Assembly: GCF_013342145.1 (NCBI RefSeq)
Contig: NZ_JABUQZ010000001.1
Location: forward strand, 2,418,001-2,482,000
DNA: 64,000 bases
Direction of reading: 5' to 3'
From: Haloterrigena gelatinilytica
GTDB lineage: Archaea > Halobacteriota > Halobacteria > Halobacteriales > Natrialbaceae
A program made the translations under genes and the position numbers. The stretch's first letter is position 1, and each line of letters begins with the position of its first letter. Of the stretch, positions 26,788 through 58,300 are shown in pieces. Below the pieces are notes generated by a model. The model did no database searches. It had not been told where the DNA came from and saw nothing but the letters and a program-made list of their open reading frames with translations.

Positions 26788-28245
26788 ATGGCCGAAACCG
26801 CTGACGCCGACCGGGACGGCGACCGCGAGTTCCGGTCGGTCCCGCTCGGCGAGATCGAGACGGCCCGGAGCCGCCACATGTGGACCCGATCCGCGGTTCA
26901 CGTCGCCGAGGGCGGCGACCTCGTCGTCACCGGCGAGTGGGACGGGACCGTCACCGCCCGCGAGGTCGACTCGGACTCGCTCGAGGCCCGCTGGACGGCC
27001 GACCATCCGGACCACGCGGTCGGAATCGCGACGCTGTCGGGTGGCGGGACCGAGAGCGACGGCGAGACCGCGGAGACGGTGATCGTCGCCGGCCGCGGCG
27101 AGACCGGCACCGTTGCAGCCTACGATACCGAGACCGGCGAGCGACGCTGGCGGTACGACACCGCCGACGACCTCGGCGAGGCCGTCAAGGACACCGTCTT
27201 CTACCTCCCGTACGTGGTCGCCCTCGAGAGCGGCACCGACGCAGACGGCAACGAGTGCCTCTACGCCGCCGCGCGGCGGTACGAGCGCGACGGCGAGACG
27301 CGTCGGTGGCACAGCGCCGTCTACGCGTTCGATCCCGACGGAACGGTGCGCTGGCGCTACGAGACCGACGCCTCGCCGATCGCGATCGATCTCGACGCCG
27401 ACGGCGAGCGACTGGCGGTCGGCTATAACCGCTGTATGGGCGATCACGACGTCGGACTCGTCGTCCTCGAGACGGGGGGCGCGACGACCGAGTCGTCGCG
27501 AAACGGAGGTAGCGCGGAACTCCGTTCCGCGGACCATTCGAGCGGGCCGCGAGGCGGCGAAGCCGCCTCGAACGGGACGGCGGAGCCGTCCCCCGGCCCG
27601 CGAGAAGACGGTGAAACCGCCGAAGGGGGCGACCTCGCGTGGACCTGGGACCCCGGCACCGAGGGCGACCGGCGCGTCGGCGACGTCTCCTTCGACGGCG
27701 ATTCGATCGCGGTCTCGAGCCACGGCGACAAACGGGGCTACCTGCTCGGCCCTCGCGGCGCCGAGCGCTGGTGCGTCGATCTGGCGGTCGAAACCGAGAT
27801 CGACGGCGAGACGCTGTACGCCTATCCGAACCACGCGTACGCGGCCGACGGGCGCGTGACGTTCGTGACCGGCAACACCTACGCCGTCGAGAGCCGCGAG
27901 ACGGAGCGCCGACACCCGAACGAGCACCGGATCGCGACCTTCGACGCCGACGGCGAGTTGGCGTGGGACGACCAGGTCCGGGGCTTCGTTCACGGCCTCG
28001 CCGCTGACGGCGAGACGATCGTCGCGCCCTGCGCGCAGAACTTCCGCGTTCGCGATCCCGAGACCCACGCCGTTCGCCGGTTCGACCTCGAGTCCGGCCC
28101 GGAACGGGTCGACCGACTCGCGGGGATCGCGACCGCCGCCGCCGTCGACGACGGGACGCTGGCGGCGATCGAGGAGCCCGTGGCCTACCACGACGAGGGC
28201 GAGACCCGCGGCGAGTACGCCCTGCACGTGGCTTCGATCGAGTAA
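26788..28245 (+). CDS. PQQ-like beta-propeller protein of the corrin operon
   Basis: The 485-residue cytosolic protein (no signal peptide) has propeller blades with the usual W and AxD repeats: DLVVTGEWDGTVTA, TVAAYDTETGERRWRYD, SAVYAFDPDGTVRWRYE, RIATFDADGELAWDDQV and NFRVRDPETHAVRRFDL. Between about residues 230 and 280 the fold is interrupted by a low-complexity stretch encoded by four adjacent DNA palindromes. It is the last gene of the operon, two bases after DUF3209. It might be a scaffold for pathway enzymes or a cofactor-sensing protein; no catalytic residue supports an enzymatic call. Confidence 0.75.
   Translation: MAETADADRDGDREFRSVPLGEIETARSRHMWTRSAVHVAEGGDLVVTGEWDGTVTAREVDSDSLEARWTADHPDHAVGIATLSGGGTESDGETAETVIVAGRGETGTVAAYDTETGERRWRYDTADDLGEAVKDTVFYLPYVVALESGTDADGNECLYAAARRYERDGETRRWHSAVYAFDPDGTVRWRYETDASPIAIDLDADGERLAVGYNRCMGDHDVGLVVLETGGATTESSRNGGSAELRSADHSSGPRGGEAASNGTAEPSPGPREDGETAEGGDLAWTWDPGTEGDRRVGDVSFDGDSIAVSSHGDKRGYLLGPRGAERWCVDLAVETEIDGETLYAYPNHAYAADGRVTFVTGNTYAVESRETERRHPNEHRIATFDADGELAWDDQVRGFVHGLAADGETIVAPCAQNFRVRDPETHAVRRFDLESGPERVDRLAGIATAAAVDDGTLAAIEEPVAYHDEGETRGEYALHVASIE
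27481..27600 (+). repeat. Cluster of four triloop hairpins inserted in frame in the propeller gene
   Basis: Four perfect stems follow one another: GCGACGAC-CGA-GTCGTCGC (27481-27499), CGCGGAAC-TCC-GTTCCGCG (27513-27531), CGAGGCGGC-GAA-GCCGCCTCG (27550-27570) and GGGACGGC-GGA-GCCGTCCC (27574-27592). CGGGCC (27543-27548) also pairs with GGCCCG (27595-27600) around the last two. The reading frame stays open through all of them. Confidence 0.75.
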
Positions 28246-28387
28246 TCGAACTGTTAGATCCGGCTCGAAATCGTCGCTCGTTCACCCGTTTTCTCGACTG
28301 CAATCTGCCTCGAGCGGTCGATCCAGCCATCAGTCGCATACGCAAGGGAAATTACCACAACGCCCACTCGCATGGGTTTTGCATATA

Positions 28388-29797
28388 ATGACAACGGGTC
28401 TAGGAGATGATGGTTCCGAGGAGTGTTCGGATCCCGTGACAGTCGGGGATCGCTCGAGCCATCGTCACGACGGTGAGCACGCGGAGCGAGCGGGCCGAAG
28501 GGTTCTGACCGACGGCGGTCAGGCAGAGATGGCCGAGGAGGGTGACGACGAGGAATCGACAGCTGATGCTGAAGGGGCATCGGAAGAAGCGGAGGACGAG
28601 GAAGCCGAAGAGGAGGAAGCGGAAGACGAGGAAGCGGAAGACGAAGAAGCCGAAGAGGAGGAAGCAGAAGACGAGGAAGCGGAAGACGAGGAAGCGGAGG
28701 ACGAAGAAGCCGAAGAGGAGGAAGCTGAAGAAGAGGAAGCGGAAGACGAGGAAGCGGAGGACGAAGAAGCCGAAGAGGAGGAAGCTGAAGAAGAGGAAGC
28801 GGAAGACGAGGAAGCGGAGGACGAAGAAGCCGAAGAAGAGGAGCAGGACGTCGGAGACGATACCGGAGAACTCGTCGAGGACAATCGCGAAGAAGGCCAC
28901 GCCGAGGACGCCGAAAAGGTCTACGAGGGCGACGACGCCTCCGGCGTCCTCCACCTCGACCTCGACGGCCTCTTCCTCGATCTGCTCGGGCTCGAGGTCA
29001 ACCTGAACCCGGTCCAACTCGACGTGTCGGCCCGCCCGGGCGAAAACAACCTGCTCGGGAACCTGTTGTCCGCAGTGACGGGGCTGCTGGACGGTCCCGG
29101 CGCCATGCTGGACAAGGCGAAGGACCTCCTGAGCAAGCCGGTGGAGCTGCTGAAGAAACTCCCGGGGAAGGCGAAAGACGTGCTCAGCGGCCTTCTGGAG
29201 AAGCCGAAAGAGCTGCTCAGCGGACTGCTGAGCAAGCCGAAGGAACTGTTCGACAAGCTGCTGGGACTGCTCGGAATCGGCGGCGAAGACGCCGAGGGTG
29301 AGGAGGCAGAAGGCGAGGAAGAAGCGGAATCCGGCGGTCGGCTCTCCTCGCTCGCCAGCTGGGTGACGGGCATTCTCGGCAAGCCGGTCCAGTGGCTCCG
29401 CGGACTCTTCGGCGGCGAAGCGGAAGCGCCGGCCGAGGAGGAAGCAGCAGAAGCCGCAGACGAAGAAGCGCCTGACGAAGCGGACGCGGAGGAAGAGACT
29501 CCCGACGAAGCGGAGGTGGGAGAAGACGAGGAGGCGCCGGACGAAGCGGACGAACAGGAAGACGAAGAGGCGGAGGAAGCGGACGAGGAGGAATCGACCG
29601 AATCGCCGGGACCGATCTCCGCCGTCGGCGACCGGGCCAAAGAGGGGATCGCCGGGCTCGCCCCGAACTTGCCGGTCGAGGAATTCGTCGCGACGGTCGT
29701 CAGTCAGGTGCTCGAGCAGTTAATTGAGCAGCTCGAACCCGACGAGGAGGAAGCGGGGTCCGGTGACCAATCCGACGCCACAGCGGAGGCAGCCTAA
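28388..29797 (+). CDS. Acidic repeat protein with LLGNLL domain and amphipathic repeats
   Basis: The protein has 469 residues from ATG 28388; ATG 28529 is an alternative because a CATATAAT box overlaps 28388. The parts in order are a charged N-terminus, a tandem EEAEDEEAEDEE array (about residues 65-155), and a conserved-looking hydrophobic domain (LHLDLDGLFLDLLGLEVNL ... GENNLLGNLLSAVTGLLDG, about 181-235). Next come amphipathic 11-residue units of the LLSKPxELLxx kind (about 241-296), then a second acidic stretch and a C-terminal helix (EEFVATVVSQVLEQL). The LLGNLL domain is one I recall from secreted bacterial hypotheticals, but no signal peptide is visible. First gene of a four-gene acidic cluster. 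Function unknown. Confidence 0.78.
   Translation: MTTGLGDDGSEECSDPVTVGDRSSHRHDGEHAERAGRRVLTDGGQAEMAEEGDDEESTADAEGASEEAEDEEAEEEEAEDEEAEDEEAEEEEAEDEEAEDEEAEDEEAEEEEAEEEEAEDEEAEDEEAEEEEAEEEEAEDEEAEDEEAEEEEQDVGDDTGELVEDNREEGHAEDAEKVYEGDDASGVLHLDLDGLFLDLLGLEVNLNPVQLDVSARPGENNLLGNLLSAVTGLLDGPGAMLDKAKDLLSKPVELLKKLPGKAKDVLSGLLEKPKELLSGLLSKPKELFDKLLGLLGIGGEDAEGEEAEGEEEAESGGRLSSLASWVTGILGKPVQWLRGLFGGEAEAPAEEEAAEAADEEAPDEADAEEETPDEAEVGEDEEAPDEADEQEDEEAEEADEEESTESPGPISAVGDRAKEGIAGLAPNLPVEEFVATVVSQVLEQLIEQLEPDEEEAGSGDQSDATAEAA
28621..28840 (+). repeat. 60-bp in-frame tandem repeat coding acidic residues
   Basis: Bases 28681-28740 and 28741-28800 are identical. The next 36 bases (28801-28836) repeat the beginning of the unit exactly, and 28621-28680 is a close variant. 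The unit is a multiple of three and encodes 20 residues of Glu/Asp/Ala. The exact identity points to recent unequal recombination or polymerase slippage. Confidence 0.9.
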
Positions 29798-29799
29798 CG

Positions 29800-30441
29800 A
29801 TGAGTGGAGAATCCGAATCTGAATCCGAGTCCGAGTCTACGTCAATGGCACAGCGAATCGACTACGGGAAGATCACCGAGAACATCGACGTCAACGAGCT
29901 GATCGAGGGGACCCAGTGGGAAGACGAGATCGACGAGGATCAGCCACTCGGAGAGGCGCTGGGCGCCCAGATCGGCGCGCTTATCGGCCGGAAGATCGGC
30001 GAGTCCATCGGCCGGACGATCGGCGATATGGTCGTCGAAGAACTACTCGGCGGTAAAGAGGCGGCCGAGGAGGAAGCCGAGGAAGAAGAAACTGAGGCTG
30101 AAGAAGAGGAAGAAGCTGAGGCCGAAGAGGAAGCGGAGGAGGAAGCCGAGGACGAAGGAGCCGAAGACGAAGGAGCCGAAGAAGAGGAAGCTGAGGATGA
30201 GGAAGCCGAAGACGAAGAGGCTGAAGAGGAAGAAGAAGATCTCGAGGAGGAAGCGGACGAATCGGCGGGAGAAGAGAGCGAATCCGAGTCGGCGGACGAC
30301 GAAGAATCGGCGGAATCGACGGACGACGAGTCCGAAGCCGACGACGAGGAGACCGACGACAACCAGGCCGACGACGGCGAGGAGTCCGGCTCCGACTCCG
30401 AGGCCGAGGAAGAGGACGCCGTCGAAGCCGAGGAGGACTAA
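29800..30441 (+). CDS. Acidic glycine-zipper protein I
   Basis: The 213-residue protein starts two bases after the previous stop. After a Ser-Glu repeat tail and QRIDYGKITENIDVNELIEG there is a glycine zipper: Gly at positions 51, 55, 59, 63, 67, 71 and 75 (GEALGAQIGALIGRKIGES ...), seven glycines at exact i+4 spacing with Ile/Leu/Val between. From residue 90 on it is almost pure Glu/Asp/Ala/Ser. Glycine zippers pack helices in membranes and oligomeric rings. The helix here is amphipathic rather than a plain transmembrane span. A later start at Met 16 is possible. Function unknown. Confidence 0.78.
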   Translation: MSGESESESESESTSMAQRIDYGKITENIDVNELIEGTQWEDEIDEDQPLGEALGAQIGALIGRKIGESIGRTIGDMVVEELLGGKEAAEEEAEEEETEAEEEEEAEAEEEAEEEAEDEGAEDEGAEEEEAEDEEAEDEEAEEEEEDLEEEADESAGEESESESADDEESAESTDDESEADDEETDDNQADDGEESGSDSEAEEEDAVEAEED

Positions 30442-30501
30442 CCATGAGACCGAATCAAGCACTCGGCGGCCGTTCGCCGCACCCGTCTCGAGGTGAGCGC
30501 C

Positions 30502-31500
30502 ATGGCTGAGAGCGGACTGCGGAAGCTGGTCGCCCAGGAAGTGAGCGACCAGCTCGACGTGGCCGACGTGCTCGGCGACGGCAGCATCGAGGACAGCATC
30601 GACGGCGGCGAGGTCGGCGCGGCGGTCGGCCGCGAGTTCGGCGAGCAGGTCGGGCGCGAACTCGGCGGGGCGATCGGCCGCGGAATCCACGAGTCGATCG
30701 CCGAAGGCCTCGAGGAGGGAAAGGACCGGAAGGAAATGCAGTCCTCCCTCACGGCCGCGATCCGTGATTCCCTCCGGGAGACGGTCGAAGAAAACGACGC
30801 GAAGGAGTCGGTCCAGTCGCTGGCGCAGGGCGTCTCCGAAGGCAGCGGTCTCGAGGGCTTACTCGAGAGCGATGCTGACGAAAGCGAGGCCGAGAGCGAC
30901 GAGGGCGAGGAAGCCGACAGCGAGGGCGGCACGCAGGAGACCATCGAGTCGGTCGTCGAGAGCATCGGCGAGGAAAGCGGCCTCGGTGACGTTCTCGAGG
31001 GCGAGAGCGAAGAGTCGGAGGGCGAAGCCGAGTCGGAAGAAGGCGACGAGGAAGAGGGAGAAGACGAAGCCGAGTCGGCGGACGAAGACGCCGAGGAGGA
31101 ACCGGAGGACGAGGCCGAGTCGGAAGAGGACGAGGAAGCGGAGACGGAAGGCGACGGCGAGCCGGAAGCTGAAAGCGACGAAGCGGCGGAGGCCGAGGAC
31201 GAATCCGAAGCGGAAGCGGACTCCGAAGAGGAGACCGAGGAGACGGCGGACGAATCCGAGGCCGAAGCGAGCGACGACTCCGAGCCGTCGGTCGAGGACA
31301 TCGAGGATCTGCGCCGGGGTACGCTGGAGGACTTCCTCGGCATCATGTCCTACGACGACCTGCAGTCGGTCGCCAAGGACGTCGGCGTGAAGGCGAACCT
31401 CAGTCGCGACGAGATGACCGAGCAGATCATCGCGGCGGTGACCGACGAGGGCGAAGACGAAGACGGGGCCGACGACGAACCGGAAGCCGAAGCCGAATAA
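30502..31500 (+). CDS. Acidic glycine-zipper protein II with SAP-like C-terminus
   Basis: The 332-residue protein (ATG 30502; GTG 30493 is in frame) repeats the design of its neighbour. LVAQEVSDQLDVADVLGDG is followed by seven glycines at i+4 (positions 35, 39, 43, 47, 51, 55, 59; GEVGAAVGREFGEQVGREL). Then come helical segments, a long acidic stretch (about residues 115-262), and a C-terminal segment MSYDDLQSVAKDVGVKANL-SRDEMTEQIIAAV. That segment resembles SAP/Rho-N helix-extension-helix folds that bind nucleic acid; this call is inference. The 60-base gap to the previous gene suggests one operon. Confidence 0.78.
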   Translation: MAESGLRKLVAQEVSDQLDVADVLGDGSIEDSIDGGEVGAAVGREFGEQVGRELGGAIGRGIHESIAEGLEEGKDRKEMQSSLTAAIRDSLRETVEENDAKESVQSLAQGVSEGSGLEGLLESDADESEAESDEGEEADSEGGTQETIESVVESIGEESGLGDVLEGESEESEGEAESEEGDEEEGEDEAESADEDAEEEPEDEAESEEDEEAETEGDGEPEAESDEAAEAEDESEAEADSEEETEETADESEAEASDDSEPSVEDIEDLRRGTLEDFLGIMSYDDLQSVAKDVGVKANLSRDEMTEQIIAAVTDEGEDEDGADDEPEAEAE

Positions 31501-31585
31501 TCGCCGTCCGTCCTCGAGACTCCGGACGGAAGCGGGCGGCGGACGGCGAACTGCGAACTGCGGTCGCGCGGACGGTGAGGGAACC

Positions 31586-32578
31586 ATGAGTCAGGATAGC
31601 CAGGACCTCCACGATCGGGTGACCGAGATACTGAACGCGGCCGAGACCTCGAGCGGGTCGCTGCTCGGCGACGAGGCCGGCGACGCCGACGGCGCGAGCG
31701 GGAACCTCCTCGAGACCGCCGCGGAGGCCAACGACCTCCTCGAGTCCGCGGAGCCGGACGAACTGCTCGCGGCGGTCGGGCTGGACACGCTGCCCGACGG
31801 CAGCGAGCCGGACTCGATTCCGGCGGCCATCGCGCGGGGCGATCCGGAGCAGGTCGCGGACCTCCAGCGGCTGTTGCACCTCTCGAATCTGGCCGATGAC
31901 GACGACGAGGGAGCGCTCGAGGGCGCCGTCGACGCGCTCCGGTCGTCGATCGGCGACGGCGAGGAAGCGACGGCCGAATCGGACGCCGGCGACGAGGGCG
32001 AGTCGGACGCGGAGGCCGACAGCGAGGGCGATCAGGCAGCGGATGACGAGGCCGAAGACGACGGACTGCTCGAGACCGTACTCGGCTCGGGAGACGAGCG
32101 CGGCGGCGATATCGGCGCCGAGGCGTCGGCCGGCGACGCCGGATCCGACGAGGACGACGCCGACAGCGAAGGCGGCGCGCGAGAGACGGTCGAGGCCGCC
32201 GCCGAAACGGTCGGCGAAGCCAGCGGACTCCTCGAGAGCGACGAAGAAGAGGTCGACGACGAGGACGACGGCGGCTCCGACATCGGCGACCAGCTCCGGT
32301 CGGCGGTCGAGTCCTCGCTGACGGACGTCGGCGACGACCTCGAGGGGCTTCACGAGCGACTGCAGGAGCGAAGCGCCAGTTCCGTCGGCGACGAAGGCGA
32401 CGGTGAGGACGACGCCGACGCGGCGGACGAGGAAGACGACGGGTTGTTCGGTTCCGGGCTCGGCTCGAGCGACGGGGGCGGCGGCGACGGAACCCGGCAC
32501 TCGACGATGGCGCCGCCGCCGTCCAAGCGCGCGGATATGAAGACGACGCGTCACTCGACGATGCCCAAACGCCGCTGA
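31586..32578 (+). CDS. Acidic protein with duplicated RHSTM tail
   Basis: The 330-residue protein begins SQDLHDRVTEILNAAETSSGS and has a leucine-rich helical N-terminal region (about residues 1-115: NLLETAAEANDLLESAEPDEL, LQRLLHLSNLAD), then acidic low complexity. The end is unusual and basic: the pentapeptide RHSTM occurs twice in the last 30 residues, first followed by APPPSKRADM, then by PKRR-COOH. The contrast between the acidic body and the basic, motif-bearing tail suggests the tail is recognised by a partner. Eighty-five bases separate it from the previous gene. No family recognised. Confidence 0.75.
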   Translation: MSQDSQDLHDRVTEILNAAETSSGSLLGDEAGDADGASGNLLETAAEANDLLESAEPDELLAAVGLDTLPDGSEPDSIPAAIARGDPEQVADLQRLLHLSNLADDDDEGALEGAVDALRSSIGDGEEATAESDAGDEGESDAEADSEGDQAADDEAEDDGLLETVLGSGDERGGDIGAEASAGDAGSDEDDADSEGGARETVEAAAETVGEASGLLESDEEEVDDEDDGGSDIGDQLRSAVESSLTDVGDDLEGLHERLQERSASSVGDEGDGEDDADAADEEDDGLFGSGLGSSDGGGGDGTRHSTMAPPPSKRADMKTTRHSTMPKRR

Positions 32579-32673
32579 GCGATCCGTCCGCTCGCACTGA
32601 CGCGCACGGACCACCACGAAACCCCGGCAGGAGACCGCTGAAGGCTTATCCCGACTGCAGCCGTCGCTCTCGT

Positions 32674-33156
32674 ATGACGAGACACGTTAGCGAGACCCAG
32701 GTCCGCCACTGGTTGGACGAAACGGCGATTCGGGGCGTGACGGCCCACTCCGACGAGGACACCGCGTTCAACCTGCAGGTCGAACTCTCGCGGTTGCCCG
32801 TCCACGTCATCAAGGAGGAGGAGTTCGGTCCCGTCCGGATCGTCGGTCGAAGCGGGTTCGACACGGAGCGAACGAAGGAACTGCTCCGCGACGATCAGCG
32901 CCGAAGCGAACTCCTCCAGTACGTCGGGCCGATGCTGGCGGCGACGCCGGGGTTCTACACCTTCCTCGACCCCGGCGGCGCGGCCTGTCAGCTCCGGGAG
33001 GCGGAAACCGTTCAGGTCGAGTACCGCGTCTACCCCGACGAAGCCAGCCAGCAGGCCCTGATGGACGGCATCATGTCGATCGCGACGAGCATGCGGTACG
33101 TCCGAAACGTCGTCGCGACGATCGGCGCCCAAGTGGAACCGGAAACTGATGAGTAA
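32674..33156 (+). CDS. Conserved hypothetical protein, possibly DUF2299-like
   Basis: The 160-residue protein is less acidic than the four before it and looks globular: VRHWLDETAIRGVTAHSDED, NLQVELSRLPVHVIKEEEFGPVRIVG, then a helical middle and YRVYPDEASQQALMDGI. An N-terminal 'WL' helix followed by a two-strand fragment recalls DUF2299, but I am unsure. GGCTTATCC 27-33 bases upstream is a good TATA box for a leaderless transcript, so it has its own promoter after the acidic cluster. Confidence 0.7.
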   Translation: MTRHVSETQVRHWLDETAIRGVTAHSDEDTAFNLQVELSRLPVHVIKEEEFGPVRIVGRSGFDTERTKELLRDDQRRSELLQYVGPMLAATPGFYTFLDPGGAACQLREAETVQVEYRVYPDEASQQALMDGIMSIATSMRYVRNVVATIGAQVEPETDE

Positions 33157-33233
33157 CGCGCGTGACGCTGCCGACCGCCTCGCCGTGCGGTGGAGGCCGA
33201 ACATTTACTTCGGCTGTCGTGTGACATAGCCGT

Positions 33234-33728
33234 ATGACGCTACTCGTGCCCTTCGACGGGTCGAAACTGGCGAGAAAAGCGCTCGAGAAGGCCGCGACGT
33301 TCGGCGACCTGTTAGACGAGGAGGTCGTCGTCCTGACGGTGATCCCCGACGACGCCGACTACGCTCGAGACCGCGGCTGGATCGCCGCGGGGGAGCCGTT
33401 CGACCCGGAGGCCATCGAGGCGGGCATCGAGACGCGGGCGATGGAGGTCGCCCCGGAAGCGACGTTCCAGACCGAGCGCGTCAGTTCCGACGAACCGACC
33501 GCGACGGCGACGAACAACGTCGTCCGCGCGATCCGACGGGTCGCCGGCGAGATCGGCGCGTCGGTGGTCTTCATCGGGTCCGAAAACGCCGGCTCGGTGA
33601 TCGCCCCGCAGTCGAGCGTCGGCAGCCCGGTCGCCAACGACCAGCGCTACGACGTCTACGTCGTCCGCGAGCCCGGCGAGGGCGTCGATCCCGAGGACAT
33701 CACGGACATCGATTCGACCGTCGAGTGA
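33234..33728 (+). CDS. UspA-domain universal stress protein
   Basis: The 164-residue protein starts TLLVPFDGSKLARKALEKAA, the usual UspA strand-loop-helix, with VVVLTVIPDD and IGASVVFIGSENAG later. The ATP-binding G-x2-G-x9-G(S/T) segment of ATP-type Usp proteins is degenerate here (GSENAGSVIAPQSSVGSPV), so nucleotide binding is uncertain. It lies before a CPA2 antiporter whose C-terminus also carries Usp-like segments, so the two may work together. ACATTTACT about 30 bases upstream is a probable TATA box. Confidence 0.8.
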   Translation: MTLLVPFDGSKLARKALEKAATFGDLLDEEVVVLTVIPDDADYARDRGWIAAGEPFDPEAIEAGIETRAMEVAPEATFQTERVSSDEPTATATNNVVRAIRRVAGEIGASVVFIGSENAGSVIAPQSSVGSPVANDQRYDVYVVREPGEGVDPEDITDIDSTVE

Positions 33729-55380: not shown

Positions 55381-58300
55381 CTATCTAACCGACTTCGTTC
55401 AGGAGAGCGAAGAACGAATTACGGAACTGAACAACGCGTTGCTCACGCTCGAGCGCGACCCGACCGACGACGAGGCGATGGAGAACATCTTCCGGGTCGC
55501 ACACACGCTCAAGGGCAACTGTGGCGCGATGGGACTCGAGCCGGCGAGCGATCTCGCCCACGCGATCGAGGATCTGCTCGACGCCGTCCGGCAGGGCGGC
55601 CTCGAGGTGACGCCCGAACTGATGGACGTCGTCTTCGACGCGGTCGACGAACTCGAGACGATGATCGACGAGGTCGCGGCCGGCGGCGAGATCGAGACCG
55701 ATCCGTCGGCGACGATCGCGGCCCTTCGAGACCAGCTCGAGGCCGCCGACGGGCTCGCCGCGATCGCGACGCCATCGACCGACGAGATCGACGCCGTCGC
55801 CGAGCGGTTCGATCCGCCGGCCGACGACGAACACCACGCCTACCTGGTGCGGCTCGCGATCGCCGAGCGGGACGGCGTCAACAGCGGCAAGCTCGTCGTC
55901 GACGCGTTGATCGACGCGTTCGATCTGATCGGAACCCAGCCGCCACGAGACGAGATCGAGGCCGGCGAGTACGACGGCACGTTCGACGCCGTCTTCGGCA
56001 GCGCGGTCGGGAGATCCGCGATCACGTCCGGCCTCGAGCCGGTCGAGGAGGTCGCCGACTTCGAACTCGTCGACATCAGCGACCGGTTCGACGCCCGTTC
56101 CGACGACTCGGACGCGGCCGCCGAACCGGGTGAGGGGATCTCCACGGAAGACGCCGCGGATCTCGAGGTCGACGACCTGCTCGACGAGTTCGACGAGTTC
56201 GACAACTTAGACGAGATGGTCGAGGACGTCGACGACGACGAACTCGAGGCCTTCGAGGAGATGGGCGAGGCCGGCTCGTTCGACGATCTCCTCGACGACG
56301 ACGACCTCGAGGTCGACGGCGAACTCGGGGAGCCGGCGGTCGATCCGATCGAGGACGACGCGACGGCCGACGACGCGAGCGAGCAGGCGGCCGACGATGC
56401 GTCGGCCGACGCCGAAGCGGACGACGTCGACGACGCCAACGCCGTCTTCAACGAACTCAAAGACGAGGTCGAGATGGTCGGCTTCGACGAGCTGCAGGAC
56501 GAACTCGAGGAACTCGAGTTCGACGAGTTCGACAGCGACGACGAGGTCGATATGGACGAACTCCTCGGCGAGGACGCCGACGCCGACGACGCGTTCCTCG
56601 CGGGGCCGGAACCGACCGAGGACGACGTCGACGACCTTCTGGTCGACGCCGGCGACGATGACGAGAACGAGGACGAATCGGCGACCGACGCCGTAACGGA
56701 CGACGAACTCGACGAGTTGCTGGCCGGCGACGAAGAAGCGCCCGCCGATGCAGCGACCGACGAGGGGGTCGACGACCTGCTTGCTGGCGGCGACGACGAC
56801 CCCGCCGACGCGGCGACGGACGACGACCTCGAGGACCTGTTCGCAGGCGACGAGGAAGCGTCCGCTGGCGCAGCGACGGACGATGAGTTCGACGATCTGT
56901 TCGCGGACGACGAGGACGCCGTTGACAAGCCGACGGACGACGCCGATATCGAAGCGGTCGCCGAAACGGATCCGTCCGCAAAAGCGGAGTCGGCGGCTGA
57001 ATCAGCGTCCGCCGCCGAAACAGAGCCGACCACCGACTCGGCGTCAACCGCGGTCGATACGGAGGCGCAAACCGACGCGGCCGACGACGATCTCGAGTCC
57101 GCGACGGTTGCGGAAAGCGATCCCGACCGCGAGGACGACCCCGCGGTCGACGATCCGTCGACGCTACCGGAGTCGGACGACGCGATCGAAGCGACGCCGG
57201 AACCGGGAGACGGCGGCGACGCGCTCGAGGACGAGTCAGACGCCGAGTCGACCGATCTCGAGACGCCCGATACCGCCGTCGAGACCGACGGTACGGACGA
57301 CGAATCCGTCGAGGCGGACTTCGAACCCGAGGAGGCGACCGACGAACGCGACGAGACGTTCGGCGACGACGCCGTCACGGCCGACTCCGCCGGCGACGGA
57401 CAGACCGCGGACGACGCCGAGGGCGAGTTCGCCGACGATCTCGAGACGAGCTTCGAGGACGAGTTCGAGTCGCCGGCGTCGGCCGACGACTCGAGCGACG
57501 ACCCGTTCGCCGCTGACGATGACGAAGACGATCCGTTCGCGGACGACGACCCGTTTGCGGACGAGGACGATCCGTTCGCGGACGACGCGGCGGACGATGC
57601 CTTCGGCGAAGGCGACGCGTTCGCGGCGGACGATCCCTTTGCCGACGAGTCGTTCGACACCGAGTTCGAGTCGCCGGACGACGAGTTCGACGACGTGACC
57701 GCCGCGACCGACGCCGACGCGGGGTCAGTCGACGAGGTCGTCGACGGCTTCGACGATTCGTTCGGTGACGAGGACGGCGAGGCGGCGACCGACTCGAGTG
57801 CGGAAACGCCGTCGTTCGACGACGCCGGGGCCGACGACGGCGACGAATCGGCAGCGGAGGTCGTCCACCGGATCGAGGAACCGACCTTCGAGAACCCCGG
57901 GCTGACGGTTCAGGAGTCGACGGACCGACCGGACGCCGACGAGCAAACCGACGAGATCCAGTCGGTCAGGGTCGACATCGACCAGATCGACTCGCTGCTG
58001 ACCCTCGTCGAGGGGCTGGTCACGAGCCGCGTTCGGCTCCGCCACACCGCGACCGAAAGCGAGGCGACCGACGCGCTCGAGACGGAACTCGACGACCTGG
58101 AGGACCTGACGACGGACCTCCAGGAGACGGTGATGGACATCCGACTGGTCCCCTTGCAGACGGTCGCGAGCCGACTGCCGCGGGTCGTCCGCGACATCGC
58201 GCGCGATCAGGACAAGGAGGTCGCCTTCGAGATGACCGGCGAGGACGTCGAGCTCGACCGCAGTATCCTAGACCGGATCGGCGACCCGCTGATCCACCTG

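Follow-up and report, generated by a model that had tools for sequence, protein, structure and literature searches.

A four-gene set with acidic arms

The window, by which we mean the whole 64,000-nucleotide stretch of Haloterrigena gelatinilytica DNA that was analysed, carries a set of four plus-strand genes, referred to here as A to D, with a short conserved element ahead of gene A. Counted from the first letter of the window, these features lie as follows.

28337–28359, plus strand: conserved upstream element CATACGCAAGGGAAATTACCACA, 28 nt 5′ of the gene A ATG
28388–29797, plus strand: gene A, 469 aa, net charge −154; this ATG agrees with the constant distance from the upstream element
28892–29125, plus strand: conserved core of gene A, HLDLDGLFLDLLGLEVNLNPVxLDVSARPGENNLLGNLLSAVTGLLDG
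29800–30441, plus strand: gene B, 213 aa, glycine-zipper-like core and an acidic arm with two EEAE[D/E]x2 sites
30502–31500, plus strand: gene C, 332 aa, with a glycine-repeat helix, an acidic arm and a C-terminal three-helix domain (31273–31464)
31586–32578, plus strand: gene D, 330 aa, acidic middle between a conserved N-terminal part and a conserved basic tail (32492–32578)

The product of gene A runs from a short N-terminal peptide through an acidic arm into the conserved core and ends, beyond a set of Lys-Pro amphipathic helices, in an acidic tail; translation could also begin at an in-frame TTG (28379), though this is less likely. Within the core, 30 of 78 residues are invariant across a set of 17 sequences. 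Gene A had no match in Pfam or PHROGs and no credible NCBIfam family, the sole NCBIfam row being PRK14949 (17 bits; cut-off 1016), which covers the acidic arm. A PDB sequence search with the core profile returned a single row (E 0.59), and Rfam contained nothing at gathering score over 27000–33500. The AlphaFold model from the core to the stop was poor (mean pLDDT 58), so that the reading of the arm as a disordered spacer rests on its composition.

Relatives of gene A are present in 38 of the 61 genomes drawn around the window, its own genome counted, and in all six species of the genus that were examined. The core profile matched 43 of the 145 genomes of the order, including 21 of the 24 genomes that were listed for the window's own family. 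A pattern-based scan of species genomes gave 52 loci, mostly Natrialbaceae judging by genus name, in which searches with the window proteins recovered A in at least 49, B in at least 50, C in at least 48 and D in at least 44, these counts being lower bounds due to loci that end at contig ends. Gene order was A-B-C-D in every one of the 44 loci holding all four genes, and in each gene short conserved cores stand beside acidic segments whose length varies. Ten further regions, eight of them outside the family, matched A in ten cases, B in nine, C in ten and D in six, with some matches short or weak and with order or strand not always equal. A dependence of the set on the cobalamin-type genes upstream was considered and set aside, since these occur in 27–28 of the 52 loci and A and B in 49–50. 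Among the matches listed, our literature searches returned nothing on the putative A-B-C-D operon, its repeat or its upstream element.

The core motif of gene A was also seen in an actinobacterial protein, from Planobispora siamensis (L088, 7001–7102). This protein resembles gene A in LDLLGLEV...GNLLGNLL (59% over 34 residues, 45% over 65) and differs from it in being without an acidic arm and in having an N-terminus that looks, by eye, like a signal peptide of a secreted protein. No match to B, C or D was found in the surrounding 14-kb locus.

The core of gene B contains seven glycines at 29950–30024, whose exact four-residue spacing recurs in 49 of 50 orthologues and which are invariant in 25 aligned sequences, making up a regular GxxxG repeat. 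It nevertheless scored below the cut-offs of the Pfam glycine zipper families PF13488, PF05433 and PF13441 (best 15.9 bits versus 25). A PDB sequence search with the start of gene B gave a single row (E 0.78), and PHROGs gave two weak rows for gene B (best E 0.005) and none for A, C, D or the gene at 32674–33156. A literature search for calcyanin with a glycine zipper returned no paper. In gene D, the basic tail contrasts with the acidic body and bears two RHSTM motifs; R[HYF]ST[MLV] is found within the last 60 residues of all 44 gene D orthologues.

The C-terminal domain of gene C, modelled as three helices with a mean pLDDT of 80, bears a suggestive resemblance to SAP and Rho_N domains that stays below significance. 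Such a resemblance would fit a role of the set in nucleic-acid traffic, in which the acidic arms would form an electrostatic filter that keeps non-specific contacts with DNA or RNA away. Among four sequences, Rho_N was matched in two (12.2 and 13.5 bits, gathering cut-off 24.9) and SAP_new25 in three (11.6–15.6 bits, gathering cut-off 26.3), with one sequence giving no match; however, the unrelated DUF7440 scored as well in three of the four. At the level of structure, weak VIA-align matches include many SAP and Rho N-domain chains, such as 2a8v (Z 5.4, 45 residues, 1.6 Å), but Z does not exceed 6.6, the top row has an rmsd of 10.9, and a value under 8 may reflect no more than a frequent arrangement; the best Foldseek E was 0.98, none reaching 0.001. 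PMC8348266 describes an acidic cluster of Nop15 that inhibits non-specific RNA binding. The same source reports, on the other hand, that halophiles, in which salt by itself suppresses non-specific binding, have fewer such acidic clusters than expected. All things considered, we regard the electrostatic filter as rather unlikely.

The arms of genes A to D resemble the electronegative clusters and poly-D/E regions treated in PMC8348266, in being long acidic runs thought to be disordered. Unlike the clusters said there to be scarce in halophiles, long acidic segments occur in all four of these haloarchaeal genes, and the arm of gene A is built of DNA repeats. The scarcity so reported is what makes a row of four acid-armed neighbours worth noting.

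The element ahead of gene A is 23 bp long, and its pattern CAYACGCAAGGNNAANNNCCACA was found within one mismatch in 40 of 45 upstream regions. In 36 of the 45 it lies 28–29 nt from the chosen ATG, the choice being a Met 25–55 residues ahead of TDGG. Of 101 family genomes, 58 contain the exact consensus, a single copy in each, and none contains the reversed control (0/101). At up to two mismatches there were 72 hits in 70 of the 101 genomes, and 29 hits in 24 of 101 for the reversed control; given this notable chance level, we rely on the exact consensus. In the window's own genome, up to three mismatches gave one copy, and two for the reversed control. Relative to the ATG, the element stands in three different frames (33, 9 and 3 of the 45), and for this reason an N-terminal extension of gene A through it was rejected and the element is non-coding. 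We recognised no TATA-like box within the 23 bp. The element is possibly a dedicated promoter or operator.

The 60-bp array of gene A

The acidic arm of gene A contains a tandem array with the following parts.

28583–28842, plus strand: acidic tandem array, 17 × 15-bp EEAE[D/E] units with a 60-bp higher-order period, 4.3 copies
28620–28679, plus strand: close-variant 60-bp unit, 3 of 60 bases different from the next unit
28680–28739, plus strand: 60-bp unit, same bases as 28740–28799
28740–28799, plus strand: 60-bp unit, same bases as 28680–28739
28800–28836, plus strand: partial third unit, its 37 bases equal to the first 37 of the full unit

The first-pass annotation had described two identical 60-base units, a partial third and one close variant, all of which are indeed present. 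It had placed them at 28621–28840; the repeat does lie there, but its left limit has to be moved outwards, as the array begins at 28583. Each of the 17 units is in frame and reads EEAED or EEAEE. The close variant differs from its neighbour by two synonymous changes, at 28639 and 28666, and by one change from D to E at 28672. Run on the whole window, TRF returned a period of 60 with 4.3 copies over 28583–28842 (95% matches; its score of 457 tops the 30 rows of the window) and a period of 15 with 17.1 copies over 28586–28842. The exact match at lag 60 extends for 104 bp (28673–28776 against +60), and third codon positions agree in 56 of 65 cases at lag 60 and in 42 of 80 at lag 15. Counted genome-wide as a degenerate motif, EEAE[D/E]x2 has 18 sites in the 4.55-Mb genome, 16 of them in the array and two in gene B.

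Few codons are used in the array (GAA 38, GAG 20, GAC 10, GCG 9, GCC 5, GCT 2, GCA 1), and it could be argued that selection on the protein alone favoured EEAE[D/E], the identity of the DNA being a by-product of codon bias. We compare the array with codon shuffles, in which synonymous codons are permuted while the amino-acid sequence and the codon counts stay fixed. None of 2000 shuffles reached the lag-60 run of 104 bp (shuffle maximum 44, mean 18.6), and when any in-frame lag was allowed, none of 500 reached the observed run (maximum 50). This refutes codon bias as an explanation for the identity of the DNA in the window array, and selection on the protein alone seems to us hardly credible. 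The array is more repetitive at the DNA level than its protein sequence requires, and we take it to be a real DNA-level amplification, in line with the recent amplification that had first been read from the third codon positions.

Two side observations belong here. Antisense open reading frames over the array, for instance that at 28519–28884, were put down to the repeat itself, as its mechanical shadows, and discarded. A second tandem repeat of 60/120 bp was found by TRF at 56685–56942 of the window; by eye, it encodes an acidic unit similar to TDDELDDLLAGDEEAP.

The arm in related species

Among the six species of the genus, the arm measures 124, 134, 135, 160, 227 and 251 aa. The longest exact runs within these arms fall at lags of 60, 48, 42, 30, 90 and 30, and the TRF periods are 60, 48 and 42, followed by 30 in three species, with different consensus units. 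Unit sequences and copy numbers thus differ from one related species to the next, while the sequence on either side of the array is conserved. The first-pass annotation had expected the number of units to vary, and had named an array of the same count and sequence throughout all strains and related species as the outcome that would speak against this; in our comparison, which was run between species with one genome per species, all six arms differ in length and in unit sequence.

The exact 45-mers of the window arm recur within that arm at 40 of 109 positions and in the arms of the five other species at none (0/109), and single 45-mer positions favour the window's own arm by 75 to 31. The mean best 45-mer identity, however, is 0.88 within the arm and 0.89 to the five other species, which limits the reading of the arm as rebuilt in each species; an older, protein-level motif is common to the genus. 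A similar limit is set by the pair L009/L011, whose arms have 24 exact 45-mers each in common; the two arm proteins are alike at both ends and different in the middle.

In comparison with H. salina (L038), DNA identity is 94.1% over one long flank (5.6 kb) and 95.2% over a second (3.8 kb); for the 4.9-kb stretch with the four-gene set it is 85.7%, and the alignment there has 400 gap positions. Only four differences occur in the first 180 bases of gene A, and the array can be aligned only with gaps and many mismatches. In L066 and L067, the core DNA is 99.3% identical over 270 bp and there are two differences in the first 108 arm bases, but the arms are 81 and 114 aa long and their 30-bp units differ. 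The pair L057/L059, with cores 100% identical, has non-repetitive arms of 68 and 67 aa, so that length is nearly constant where there is no array.

Across the wider sample, 64 arms were each compared with 200 of their own codon shuffles, L052 having been dropped for ambiguous residues and copies of one genome merged. Twenty-two arms, all six members of the genus among them, beat every one of their shuffles, and the remaining 42 did not exceed theirs. In the 22 arrays, exact runs at in-frame lags span 28–266 bp, and those at lags not divisible by three reach at most 9 bp. Over 63 arms (L082, with its upstream TDGG, was left out of the ranges), length varies from 43 to 251 aa and Asp plus Glu from 46 to 89%. 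Long arrays stay in frame, and the arm remains acidic despite the replacement of its sequence. Taken together, the comparisons across species speak for a turnover that is recurrent, in frame and charge-preserving. By eye, L104, a relative from outside the family, has another type of repeat in its arm, of the SADEDE type.

Repeat arrays are prone to error in assembly, and a misassembled repeat might have set the number of units. Some of the genomes are drafts, and the arms of L015/L038 and L083 each have an undetermined base, that of H. salina within the array. Nevertheless, the array of some 260 bp is below ordinary long or Sanger read length, and comparable arrays are found in many independent assemblies, namely in the 22 of 64 arms just described. 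Such an artefact is in our opinion very improbable.

Turnover, length and a possible assembly

Intragenic tandem repeats of variable number are known from prokaryotic genes, with examples mostly from surface proteins. The array of gene A shares with them in-frame DNA units that vary in number and sequence from one relative to another, here at the level of species, and it shows the marks of a VNTR-type repeat: DNA units more alike than the protein needs, a frame that is kept and a copy number that differs between species.

For an acidic repeat, the closest comparison we have is MamJ of Magnetospirillum, which is similarly an acidic protein with a highly acidic tandem motif in its middle and functional regions at its ends. 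The comparison is one of architecture only; the MamJ unit comprises 20 residues, is Glu-Pro rich and belongs to a bacterial magnetosome protein. According to PMC3905215, magnetosome chains can be restored in a mamJ deletion without the central acidic repetitive (CAR) domain of MamJ, and a title cited there terms the domain hypervariable. By this analogy, the repeat itself would be of a known kind, a hypervariable acidic repeat domain. The more novel part is the putative operon with its upstream element, as opposed to the repeat.

Overall, we think it likely that the array is a recent in-frame amplification in the arm of gene A, which is acidic and probably disordered, turns over under loose constraint and serves as a polyanionic spacer. 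In this scenario, arrays would grow, shrink and be replaced by replication slippage or by unequal recombination between the purine-rich units. Selection would hold the frame and the negative charge, and length and sequence only loosely. The arm itself might act as a salt-soluble polyanionic spacer or brush that connects the N-terminal peptide to the conserved core. Against this reading we have to count that three of the six species have a 30-bp period in common.

The copy number might instead be tuned adaptively, as a reversible switch or rheostat, with arm length selected for salinity or for an assembly partner. The two-fold difference in arm length within the genus is what one might expect in such a case. 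So are the correlations of arm length between genes (Spearman: A-B 0.46, n = 44, p 0.0015; A-D 0.42, n = 31, p 0.02; B-C 0.42, n = 46, p 0.003), which would fit functional co-tuning and count against a purely neutral view. These correlations, however, are uncorrected for descent and thus ignore phylogeny, and the other three of the six pairs (A-C, B-D and C-D) are not significant. Moreover, the sequence of the units changes along with the length, and the acidic repeat domain of MamJ is dispensable for restoring chains in the account of PMC3905215. Given the replacement of unit sequence between species and this dispensability, loosely constrained turnover fits at least as well as tuning; it is also the simpler reading, and we consider adaptive tuning improbable, if worth keeping in mind.

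Returning to the arm as a loosely constrained polyanionic spacer, it is tempting to go one step further and suppose that proteins A to D act together, seeing that their genes are co-located, that all four are acid-armed and that two have glycine-repeat helices suited to packing. On this view, the arms might maintain the solubility and spacing of an A-D assembly at molar KCl and curb its non-specific contacts. The full picture would then be that of a haloarchaeal assembly with packing cores and fast-evolving polyanionic arms, expressed from a promoter marked by the once-per-genome 23-bp element, whose charge brush is reset between species by repeat turnover. We offer this picture tentatively and hold it to be possible but doubtful.

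Gene A offers a natural series: across the versions of a single protein, the core hardly changes and the polyanionic arm has been repeatedly rebuilt. Such a series lets one ask what an acidic disordered arm does in a molar-salt cytoplasm, and whether its length matters or only its charge. It also points to a conserved, uncharacterised set of four haloarchaeal genes with an upstream element specific to the putative operon.
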